Below, in pieces: positions 4,369 to 40,626 of a stretch of 46,924 nt of DNA; positions within the stretch are counted from its first letter, which is position 1; each line of letters opens with the position of its first letter. The notes beneath the pieces are model-generated. The model was not told where the DNA came from, searched no databases, and was given only the letters and a program-made list of their open reading frames with translations. The position numbers and the translations under genes were made by a program. The stretch lies in the NCBI GenBank assembly GCA_000697455.1, contig JNET01029449.1:1-46924 (forward strand), in the 5' to 3' direction. The DNA comes from Basidiobolus heterosporus B8920 (lineage: Eukaryota; Basidiobolomycota; Basidiobolomycetes; Basidiobolales; Basidiobolaceae).

Positions 4369-4851
4369 TCATTGATGATAACTTGGAGTCAAACCTTCAG
4401 CTCTGGACTCTAGGACCATTACTAGACTCTGAAACTTTACAGGCACACAATGTAGAAGTGTAACCATGCTATCTTCTATGGTAGGTAACCCAATTGACTC
4501 CATTTCATCAACTAAAGTTGCAATTCTGTTTGACAAAAACTTAATGTCCTCTCCAGCATGCATCTTGGTGCTAAAGAATTGCCTTCTCATGTACATCTTG
4601 TTAGCAGCAGAACTAGCTTGGTAGGTGTCTTCTAGGGCTTTCCAGGCATACTTGGTAGTTTTTATTCTTGCATATTGGACAAGTGATTTATCTTTAGCAT
4701 TAGGACCAATTGAGTCAAAGGCACTTTGCTTGTTCTTTGCTTGTTCTTCAAGTAAAATAAAGTATCTTGTTGAGTTCCTTTTGTAGAAATTCACATATTT
4801 TGCACTTAATGATTCATACTTGATCTCATCCTTATTATATTTACTGAGCAA
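4369..4851 (-). mobile_element. Copia gag polyprotein fragment (UBN2-like)
   Basis: The longest open stretch of the retrotransposon region, 160 codons. It resembles the Copia gag domain known as UBN2: an AWKALEDTYQAS segment, then MRRQFFSTKMHAGEDIKFL, then a helix with LVDEMESIGLPTIEDSMV and LLHCVPVKFQSLV. The first ~22 codons overlap the end of the adjacent LTR. Reading continues downstream only after the GCTGGT cluster, in the zinc-knuckle and protease remnant. The element is not capable of autonomous movement as seen here. Confidence 0.8.
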
Positions 4852-5073
4852 TTTTCCCTAACACAAAAATTACATTTGGGTTTTACTTGATATATTTTTC
4901 ACTAACTTAGAAGTACCCAGCTTACTTGACTGTCTCAAACATGTTCAAGTGACCCCAAACTTAGCACATAGGCTCCTGGGACCTTTCTTAACACATTCTA
5001 TATGTTGTACTGTTTACTTCTTGGCAAAAGTATAAAAGTCAACCTTGCATTCAATAAATCTATATGTGAAAAC
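4785..5073 (-). mobile_element. Truncated Copia LTR, left arm of inverted pair
   Basis: Minus-orientation LTR whose inner end stops at GTGAAAAC (5073), missing the terminal ~57 bp (the TGTTGTGAG... end). It is immediately followed by a full plus-orientation LTR, so the two form a large imperfect palindrome. The gag fragment at 4369-4851 belongs to this side. Confidence 0.75.
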
Positions 5074-26832: not shown

Positions 26833-29800
26833 ATGAATTTCGGTAACTCACCATACTTCCCAGAGCAAAGTATATCACAAAAGAAAACAGAGAACTTGAA
26901 AATCTACCCAGATTTGGGAAGCTTTCTATCTGAGCTTGAAGTGCCTACACCAGCAGCTGTTAATGCTCTACATAACCTACAAAAAGAACCTAGCGGTTGG
27001 CAACTAGCCTCTGTTCTTCTAGAAACAAACGTAGGCTTTGTCAATTTTATACTGCGCCCACTTGCAGCCTACTAATCACACCGCTTTACAGTCTGCACAA
27101 TGTCAATTCTTTGGTGCTCATACATACCAAATCAAAATCTCAAGAGATTGGTAAGCACTTCCAAACCTTTGTAACATACGTCAACTTATTAAATATCTCG
27201 CAAAATAGGGATACCTTACCAGAAGAGCAAGTTGAGCAATTACGTGAAGAAATAATCAAGTGGATAGTGGAGTTCAGTAATGGGCCTAACTTGGTGTTGA
27301 CAAAACTCTCTTTAGCAGTGTGTATTTGTTGATGGTCTCTAGGGAATTTTATCGGAAATACTAAGTTTTTTTTCCACTCAATTCGCTTTGTAGTTGACGA
27401 CCTACGCTTTACGAACTGTTCCTGATATTTGGACTAATTTCATCCCGGAAACTTTACAAGCTTTGGAAATAGAATCGAAAAAGCCCCACAACAGACCCAT
27501 GAACAACGAGAATGCTTTTCTGGAGTTTTTGACGCTGCTTCCAGAAGAGCTCAACAGAGCTGACCTGGTTGGCTCCAAGAAGTAGGATCAATTATTTTGA
27601 TTATCCAATTAACTACAGTAATAACCTTTGTACAGGAGCCAATTCAATCAAGAACTCCTCAACTCAATTCCCCTTGTGCTTAATACAGTTGGAACTTTTC
27701 TGTCCGATGACACTCGGTCAGATCCCGCTTATGAGATGTTGCGCCAAAAAGCACTCAGATGCTTGCAAAGTTGGATACAGTATGGAATTCCTTCAGAGTA
27801 AGTGTTGTCTATTTCTGCCGTTCATGTAGGCCTGAATTTCCAATTGCCGACTCACGAAATGGAAGGTCCATAGCCCCGATTTTCAACCGGACATTGGTTC
27901 TACTACAGAGGGAATCCACATTCGAAGCAGCTATTGAGGTTCTCATCGAGCTGTTGACTCGCCAAGGAAATTCACAATACGGGAATACCCTAAGTGAGAG
28001 CTTCTTGCGTTGCGTAACCAGTCCATGGATGAAGAATGCCGTTGAGACATCTATACTAGGTAAATGTTGGAGTTTTCATCGATTGTATCTAGCTTGGCTT
28101 ATTGAGAAAAGTTGTTTAGAGAGAAACGAGGATGTAGCGGCATATCTTGCCCGGCTTCTTACAACATATGGCGAGGAGTTTACCGAGTATTTGGTCCAGC
28201 ATCTAGAAAATCCTGATATCACTGTCTACTTGGAGATGATGGTTGGGTTCATAGGGTTCCCAGGGTATTTCGCTGCGGAGCAAGAGATATCCTTTAATTG
28301 ACAACAATGCCAGAATGATTTTGCTTTGTCTATTGTCGACTGTCTCCTTAACTCTTCATTACATTAGTGAGATTCCTCTGAATTTTTGGTATTTGCTGCA
28401 AGAGGGCATACTTGATTTGACTGTAGAGTGTGATGATCGCGGCATCATTGAGAGGACCAAGAGGATCGCTTCCATGATTTTCTCAAAGCTTGTTCAAGTC
28501 CTAAGACAGAAGATTGAATACCCTAGTGAGGATGAATGGCTATCGTGGAGCAAAGGTACTTTACCTACTTGATCGATATCCACAACAATTTCTAAACCAT
28601 GCTAGATGTCAAGGAGCGGTTTAAAATCTATCGACGTGATGTCGGGGACACTTTGATTAATTCCTACCTTGTGCTACACGGCGAGATGCTGGAGTATTTA
28701 CTGAACCTGGCTTCGACTCAGTTAAACAGCGATCATGCTGTTTCTCACTGGCAGGTACGAATTTGATTAATCTGTTCGCGACTTTGCAAAACAACTCATA
28801 CCTGAATACCAGGACTTGGAGTCAACCTTGTTCTGTTTACGTTCTATATCGGAAGCAGTGTCTAGCGTAGATCCTTATATTGCTAAATTGTTTGGAGATG
28901 ACATACTCGGGAAACTTCCAGTTCAAGGTCACAACAAAATTCGCTTGACAACACTCCAGATTCTGGGTACGGTTTGTGGTGAGATTCTTTTCAGCCCGGA
29001 TTCTTTCTAACCCCTACACGCAGGTGCATACGCTGATTGGCTAAAGAGACATCCACAGCATCTACTGCCTTCTCTAAATTTCATTATCCCCACACTCTCC
29101 GACCCTGAACTAGCCTTTGTTGCTGCCAGTTCGTTCAAGGACATTTGTGATACCTGTAGAACTGAATTGGTGGATGGGGTCGAATCCTTAGTCAATATGT
29201 ACACTCATATTAGCAGCGCCATTGAGGTAGTTCTCAACGTTAATGTAGGATTACAGCAACCCGTAGATTCACGCCCTTTGTTTGTAGGAAAGAGAAAAGC
29301 AAAAGGTTTTAGAATCCATCTCAGCAGTTATCCAAGCTTTACCTCTTCGGAAAACCCTTGAGCCTCTTTCGGTAAGTTGTTACTGGGTGCTTGTGATATC
29401 GAAGGGATTTTCATAGAGATTTTGCAATACTTTCATTAGGTACTTATCGGAGATATTCTTCAGACTATAACCAAAGCCTTCGATTTAGGCAAGCAGGTAG
29501 GCCTTTAACCATCAACTTTCTATATACATTAGCGATTTATTCTCGTATTCTTTACCATAGACGGGGAATTTCGTCGAGTGTCGTCCTGTTGTTCTAAGCC
29601 ATATCAATTATCTTATCGCATGTTGTCGTGGCATTCAGCCTCCTGACGATGAACCAACACACACGGCGGAACCTGAAGAAACCAATGCTGTATTGAATTC
29701 TCCTGAAGCTCAAAGCGTCTCCATAGCTATCTGGGGATTGATTGAGGATATCTCTAAAGCCTATTGTCATGACGAAGAAATCATGGAGGTATTCTTTCGA

Positions 29801-31015
29801 TTTGCTGTTCATTCTCTCTCGAACAAAAATATTGACCATACAACTACTGCAGGCAATTTGCTCACTACTGAACACAAGTATCATGTCACCTTCGCATGTC
29901 TTTACCATGGAGTTCTCGAATATTGCTAGATTCTTGCATCAAACTTATCTAAGACATCAACACCCTTACATCCTGGATACTGTTTGCCAGTTAGTGACCG
30001 TTTACGGTGGCGAAGAGAAGAATGTTGTGGTCTTAAGCGAGCTTCTAGCCACCTTAACTGGGATCACCTTGGGAAATATTCAAAATCTTCAAGGTGAGCT
30101 TGTATTGATGTATGTTCATTCGTAAGCCATCACTAAATTTCGTACCTAGGCATGGAGGAAAACCCACACTTGACCAGCTCATACTTTGGAATGTTATCTA
30201 GAGTAAGTCTCATACATCAAGCATTCGCGAAATGACATATCCATTAAGACGGGTGCTTTTTCTGTTAGTATGTTCGTAAATGCCCAGTGGCATTGTTTAC
30301 TACGCCCCCTGAGGTATTCAACAATATCATCCTGTTTTCTGTGTCGGGACTTGGATTACAAGAGCGCTTGGCCCTCCGTTCAGGGATTGCTTTTATGGTA
30401 AGTACGGTAGAAATTATAGACATTGTAAATGAAACTAATCGGTTCGTTAGGTTGATTTGATTGGAATAAATACCGGGAATCAATCAGTTTTGGATAGTGT
30501 AGATAATGTGGTTAATACATTTGGCCAGCAAATCATGCAAGAGCTTCTTTTGGTATCTGCCAGTTAATATCTTGGTCATATTCCAGAGATACTTTACTCA
30601 AGTCTCTCTCGTATATTTAGGGAATCGGAGGAAGACTGCCCCGTTCTTTCGTCACCTTACTTACGGATCTTTTATATAAACTTACCGGAAAATATGTCCA
30701 AAACTGCCGTCAATGGCTAGCGATCCTGTTAGCTCAGGTAAGCACTATGGCTCAACTCTGATGCGCCCTCCTGAATATACTGTTAATTTCCCCATCTAGG
30801 AAGCTTTCCCGTCCTCGCATATTGACAAGGCCTCTAAAGAGGCTTTTGCTAAGAACATTATGATGTAAGAAAAAATCATCTGGGCATATGTGTAATGATT
30901 TTCTAATCTATCATTTACCAATAGAACACGCGGGGTGAAACGTTTCAAGGAAGTCGTCACAGAATTCTCGTTGCGTTGTAGAAGAATGGAGAATAGTGCT
31001 TATGGGTGCACCTAG
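26833..31015 (+). CDS. Importin-13/Kap122-like karyopherin
   Basis: A large multi-exon gene for a HEAT-repeat nuclear transport receptor of the importin-13/Kap122/transportin-SR group. The start at 26833 is followed by LSELEVPTPAAVNALHNLQ. Exon 2 carries AQCQFFGAHTYQIKISRDW and the next DTLPEEQVEQLREEI. Then LTLLPEELNRADLVGSKK, LRCLQSWIQYGIPSE, FIGFPGYFAAEQE, ISEIPLNFWYLLQE, YRRDVGDTLINSYLVLHGEM, TLFCLRSISEAVSSVD, IRLTTLQILGAYADWL and PELAFVAASSFKDICDTCR, all in family order. The end, RGVKRFKEVVTEFSLRCRRM, resembles the importin-13 C terminus. Most introns are 55-80 nt GT-AG with TACTAAT/CTAAC-type branch sites. One, 28287-28362, is U12-type AT-AC. Cargo and direction of transport cannot be read from sequence. 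Confidence 0.85.
28287..28362 (+). other. U12-type (minor spliceosome) AT-AC intron
   Basis: 76-nt intron in the importin gene. It begins ATATCCTTT, the exact U12 5' consensus, has CTCCTTAAC at 28344-28352 (consensus TTCCTTAAC, one mismatch), and ends in AC 11 nt beyond the branch adenosine. Splicing AT to AC joins ..FPGYFAAEQE to ISEIPLNFW in frame, which fits the family. Read unspliced, the frame hits TGA within five codons. Confidence 0.88.
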
Positions 31016-40295: not shown

Positions 40296-40626
40296 GTTCT
40301 GCCAAGTCTAATGGAGGGAATGGCTTATTTATCTGAATTGAAGGAGATCATGAATTTAACGATTTATGCAATCGAGCATCAGGTGGCTGACGATCCTTAA
40401 TTGTGACTGCCTTTGAAATACGTAAGGAAGTAAGATCTAGTGATTGGCTATGAGGATTAATTGGCGCTAATTGGCGCTAATTGGCACTACCAGTATCCTT
40501 TTAATGTTCTAGTTATTGTGACATCAAACAAAATTTAAGTTAGGATGAGGACAAGCCAATAAGACATTGCTTTCCTTGACGTTGAATTCGATAGATCCGA
40601 AGATCCCAAAAGTGAAGAACAAGACA
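40296..40626. other. Intergenic with short tandem repeat and U12-like signals
   Basis: 331 bp between the minus-strand trpD stop and the C2/EML start. It has three copies of AATTGGCGCT/AATTGGCACT (40459-40488), directly followed on the plus strand by GTATCCTTTT (40493) and, at 40572, TTCCTTGAC, both matching U12 intron consensus. No plus-strand coding region is visible. Confidence 0.5.

Follow-up and report, generated by a model that had tools for sequence, protein, structure and literature searches.

The sequence at 28287-28362 of the analyzed DNA of Basidiobolus heterosporus B8920 begins with AT, ends with AC and interrupts a gene for an importin, which raises the question of whether it is removed as a minor-spliceosome intron or is only part of a larger GT-AG intron. 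The window, i.e., the whole stretch of DNA that was analyzed, is 46,924 nucleotides long and is contig C88 of an assembly of 8,137,145 bases in 428 contigs. Our results indicate that this Basidiobolus importin-13 gene almost certainly carries, at 28287-28362, a genuine minor intron of the U12 type with AT-AC ends. This reading is supported by a spliced product that matches its ortholog without gaps, by a set of further introns in the genome that share its motifs and by a gene for U11/U12-35K. The features of the gene and of the AT-AC intron are as follows.

26833-31015, + strand: importin-13 gene from ATG to stop, with a coding sequence of 980 amino acid residues and 20 introns, placed by frame and homology
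27031-27091, 27151-27208, 27318-27393, 27582-27635, 27798-27865, 28060-28119, 28556-28605, 28755-28812, 28967-29023 and 29227-29287, + strand: numbers 1-10 of the 19 GT-AG introns of the importin-13 gene, placed by frame and homology
29372-29439, 29497-29560, 29789-29852, 30094-30149, 30203-30268, 30398-30450, 30553-30620, 30738-30799 and 30865-30924, + strand: numbers 11-19 of the same GT-AG introns, placed likewise
28287-28362, + strand: U12-type AT-AC intron (almost certain), 76 nt long and in phase 0, separating codons 359 and 360 of importin-13
28287-28295, + strand: 5' splice site ATATCCTTT, in full agreement with the donor consensus of U12-type AT-AC introns
28345-28352, + strand: branch site TCCTTAAC, with the branch adenosine probably at 28351 (or 28350)
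28361-28362, + strand: 3' splice site AC, of which the C sits 11 nt past A28351

Judged by its full-length similarity and its Pfam repeats, the gene belongs to the importin-13/transportin-3 family. After removal of the AT-AC intron, the predicted importin-13 of 980 residues aligned with the annotated protein of Basidiobolus meristosporus (P0001) in a single ungapped block, in which 856 of the 980 residues were identical (87%). An acceptor of intron 5 at 27829, which gives an intron of 32 nt, was rejected for leaving 12 residues in excess of the B. meristosporus protein, and the acceptor at 27865 was used instead. The homolog search, the homolog alignment and the PDB and Pfam searches were run with a model of 992 residues that differs from the 980-residue protein only at intron 5. 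With the 992-residue model, the closest homolog was 86% identical, and the identities of the remaining matches listed (best 120 of 150 homologs) were 44% or lower. On this basis, Basidiobolus, which NCBI currently assigns to Basidiobolomycota, is the most likely genus of the organism. The top PDB match was the importin-13 chain 2x19_B (E 3.4e-88, residues 47-989), which we take to be human importin-13. The Pfam families above the cut-off were PF18773, PF18806, PF24140, PF24139, PF08389 and PF03810. The lengths of the 19 GT-AG introns ranged from 50 to 76 nt, and these introns bear out the preliminary description, in which all other traced introns were U2-type. Rfam and tRNA scans over the whole window returned zero matches.

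The intron at 28287-28362 reads ATATCCTTT...TCCTTAACTCTTCATTAC. The donor motif ATATCCTT is exact at 28287-28294, and CTCCTTAAC occupies 28344-28352. U12 branch sites usually lie about 8-20 nt from the 3' end of the intron. The TCCTTRAC motif near the 3' end is found at 28345-28352, where A28351 is 11 nt before the last base. Thus, the motifs, the length of 76 nt and the distance of 11 nt from branch adenosine to AC given in the preliminary description were confirmed in both coordinates and sequence. Removal of 28287-28362, with its terminal AC, gives the right frame and joins FAAEQE|ISEIPLNFW; the in-frame junction of FPGYFAAEQE to ISEIPLNFW was already proposed in that description. Retention of 28287-28362 was rejected, as it brings in a stop codon after residue 363. 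The pattern ATATCCTT-N30..60-TCCTTAAC occurred once in the window and 0 times across 100 dinucleotide shuffles.

From the established knowledge of the minor spliceosome, the U11/U12 di-snRNP, with U11/U12-35K, would bind the 5' splice site together with the branch site. U4atac/U6atac.U5 would next displace U11 from the 5' splice site, and GAG (Glu359) would be ligated to ATT (Ile360) in two transesterification steps. The splicing reaction at 28287-28362 presumably follows this course.

Search results from the whole assembly showed that this motif pair is not confined to importin-13. The pattern RTATCCTT-N35..65-TCCTTAAC was found 26 times in the 8.1 Mb assembly, the importin-13 intron included, vs. 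once for the reversed pattern. In addition, ATATCCTT with TCCTTGAC gave 3 pairs in the assembly and 0 in the control. Among the 26 pairs, an AC at +8 to +14 past the branch motif was present for 10 of the 12 AT donors and 2 of the 14 GT donors, and an AG in the same span for all 14 GT donors and 3 of the 12 AT donors. When only the first AC or AG in the span was counted, there were 10 AT-AC, 1 AT-AG, 12 GT-AG and 2 GT-AC combinations as well as 1 AT donor with neither. The concordance of donor and end over the 25 pairs having an end gave a Fisher p of 2e-4; the limits of this span, +8 and +14, were set after viewing the data. The assembly thus carries a population of U12-motif introns whose ends are mostly concordant.

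For the 25 loci other than importin-13, junction and frame were chosen per locus, with a general preference for the longest open frame whose ends were concordant. Some of the chosen frames were short (23 and 12 codons for L017); L004 was set as AT-AG, and the AC of L026 is at +17. Junction peptides of 20 of the 25 loci were compared with Pfam, and those of L009, L012, L015, L017 and L019 were excluded. Fourteen of the 20 were above the curated Pfam cut-off, with families that include Arf, TCP1 chaperonin, CLP1, Sedlin, VPS9, Alg6/8 and DHHC; five had no family, and one (L001) had a sub-cut-off match alone. The Pfam match spans the junction in 12 of the 14, among which L004 is doubtful, as its peptide may still contain intron sequence. 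At L004, a gene resembling that for aldose-1-epimerase may contain a U12-type intron with AT-AG ends, the acceptor of which is uncertain.

A relaxed scan of the window, run without a control, found seven motif-like pairs, including that of the importin-13 intron, and no second U12 motif pair inside the importin-13 gene. The best of the other candidates, GTATCCTTT...TCCTTGAC at 40493-40594 on the + strand (102 nt, with an AG 14 nt on), was not accepted; no + strand gene is visible there. By reading of the translation, this pair is located past the 3' end of a gene on the minus strand that resembles that for anthranilate phosphoribosyltransferase.

The preliminary description also argued that the organism keeps U11, U12, U4atac and U6atac and proposed to search the genome for minor-spliceosome parts. 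A query with human U11/U12-35K gave eight matches in the assembly. Three of them are collinear exons on contig C170, and the other five were taken as other RRM proteins. The gene on contig C170 is the following.

L037 1639-786 (contig C170), minus strand: U11/U12-35K (SNRNP35) gene, at least six exons, with five traced introns that are all GT-AG

Its spliced product was rebuilt to 164/165 residues, as the next intron interrupts the last codon. Against PDB it matched U11/U12-35K (8r7n_C) with 193.6 bits over 163 residues vs. 112.9 bits for the nearest U1-70K. The product shares 85% identity with a protein of B. meristosporus, and many of its best 120 matches, found in Mucoromycota, animals, plants and oomycetes, are named U11/U12-35K. 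By these similarities, the genome encodes the minor-spliceosome-specific protein U11/U12-35K.

That part of the proposed search was successful, whereas U11, U12, U6atac, 48K and 65K were not found in this partial assembly. The Rfam families of U12, U6atac and U11 had zero matches in the 8.1 Mb assembly, and the control genomes, prokaryotic where named, provide no positive control for these families. According to the main text of Larue and Roy (2023; PMC10639083), the same Rfam models were used in that study; therefore, the models are not in general blind to fungi. The U6 family was matched in the assembly at L039:898-1016 on the + strand, and this U6 snRNA gene is flanked on both sides by tRNA genes about 0.75 kb away. 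Queries with the 48K zinc finger, 59K and 65K returned nothing credible from the assembly. A 65K candidate on contig C323 (31% identity, E 4e-5) was rejected because it belongs to the RRM proteins, among which it was read as PABP-like, and so was a 59K candidate on C73, which, with an E of 0.04, falls below the cut-off and has stops in the three frames read. A candidate for U12 RNA on C176 had two mismatches in a 19-mer, vs. 0 hits of the reversed control, and was rejected because no wider likeness was visible by eye. Proteasome matches were found on 3 contigs of the assembly by an exon-by-exon search that can miss genes. The fungal proteasome has 14 subunit genes. By this one rough proxy, the assembly perhaps contains about a fifth of the genes, so the absences of components say little and cannot be read as losses. 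It is plausible that the organism has kept all four minor snRNAs.

The region around the junction was compared in a MAFFT alignment of the best 120 of 150 homologs (E 0.001 or better) with the 992-residue model. In the same model, 2x19_B was ungapped over the 12 residues before and the 18 residues after the junction. Additional residues right at the junction were seen in four homologs: P0065 (ISFLTFIY), P0069 (ISFFFCSCQ), P0084 (ISFFF) and P0006 (PMY). The ISF inserts of P0065, P0069 and P0084 directly follow DQE, and the PMY of P0006 directly precedes ISE. ATATCCTTT translates as ISF, and the Y before ISE in P0065 and P0006 is compatible with an intron that ends in TAC. These extra residues suggest that AT-AC introns at the same codon were partly retained in gene models of Glomeromycotina. 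Provided that these protein traces are interpreted correctly, they also suggest that the intron position predates the split of Basidiobolus and Glomeromycotina, and the intron would have been inherited from their common fungal ancestor. The named Glomeromycotina models among the 120 numbered 15, of which 11 were without residues at the intron, two more had extra residues, and two, P0003 of Gigaspora margarita and P0008 of Rhizophagus irregularis, had a clean junction. We attribute the damage at this junction to gene callers that expect GT-AG.

A U2-type GT...AG pair that encloses the AT-AC intron offers another way of splicing this region.

28264-28366, + strand: rival U2-type GT...AG pair, 103 nt, in frame, removing YFAAEQEIS; judged unlikely

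If the major spliceosome excised 28264-28366 as a GT-AG intron, the AT-AC motifs inside it would be a coincidence. The GT28264-AG28366 junction does keep the frame, with a product of 971 amino acid residues, and CTTAAC is similar to a U2 branch site as well, with A28351 standing 15 nt ahead of the final base of AG 28365-28366. Moreover, in the comparison with the 992-residue model, the more distant transportin-3 is five residues shorter at the junction site, so a certain variation in length is tolerated there in the wider family. However, on a matrix built from the gene's own introns (leave-one-out), the donor GT28264 scored -3.0 vs. -0.3 for the lowest of the 19 GT-AG donors, and its 103 nt compare with 50-76 nt for the other 19 introns. 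As the preliminary description anticipated, this junction would delete a conserved segment: all nine residues of YFAAEQEIS were present in 109 of the 120 aligned homologs. The 11 without the full segment are P0004, P0006, P0007, P0009, P0019, P0020, P0031, P0036, P0037, P0050 and P0084, all of which, from their source names, we take to be Glomeromycotina; P0084 and P0006 are thus also among the models with extra residues. Excision as GT-AG would further leave the 26 motif pairs vs. 1 in the control unexplained, and we regard it as extremely improbable.

The two pairs could also both be used, with the U12 AT-AC intron nested within a weak U2 GT-AG pair and a regulated isoform of importin-13 that is nine residues shorter. 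Both junctions keep the frame, but the outer donor GT28264 is very weak and, since the deleted segment is conserved, the short form would probably be defective. Regulated use of both is very unlikely. A wider proposal is that an old fungal minor intron lies at one codon in Basidiobolus and Glomeromycotina and that, in Basidiobolus, its nesting in an in-frame U2 pair lets two spliceosomes compete and set the level of the nine-residue-shorter importin-13; we consider this combination to be very unlikely as well. Thus, removal of 28287-28362 as a U12-type intron remains the preferred reading, for which the product fit, the 26 vs. 1 motif pairs and the U11/U12-35K gene uphold the original classification.

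According to the main text of Larue and Roy (2023; PMC10639083), B. meristosporus has 249 minor introns, 0.554% of its introns and the highest density reported in fungi, so this kind of intron is not surprising for the genus. The importin-13 intron is accordingly less surprising than the preliminary description held, Basidiobolus being already known to be rich in minor introns. Similar to the B. meristosporus minor introns, the intron described here is of the same type and in the same genus, and the importin-13 of B. meristosporus shares 87% identity with its ortholog here and shows no gap at the junction. B. meristosporus, however, is a different species or strain, and its importin-13 is known here from the protein alone. 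The same main text reports 205 minor introns and all four minor snRNAs for R. irregularis, with SNRNP35 among its minor-spliceosome proteins (PMC10639083). For R. irregularis, the residues at the same codon in the models P0069 and P0084 read as retained ATATCCTTT, which are protein traces only. The gene's own U2-type introns are of similar length, 50-76 nt. Different from the AT-AC intron, they have GT-AG ends, and the relaxed scan showed no U12 motif pair in them.

Importin is not mentioned in the main text of PMC10639083, whose intron tables sit in supplements and a database. A literature search for IPO13 with minor intron returned zero papers, and the importin-13 intron was not named in the titles or abstract beginnings from related searches. 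Thus, the kind of intron and its presence in the genus are already in print, and the importin-13 intron is a further, new instance. It adds a second Basidiobolus genome in support of a minor spliceosome at work in an early-diverging fungal lineage and provides a clean marker intron. It also carries a practical lesson, as the damage to importin-13 models at the AT-AC intron (11/15 deficient in Glomeromycotina) is probably due to gene callers expecting GT-AG. Elsewhere in the window, an open frame at 4369-4857 on the - strand resembles, by reading of its translation, a gag fragment of a Copia-type retrotransposon.
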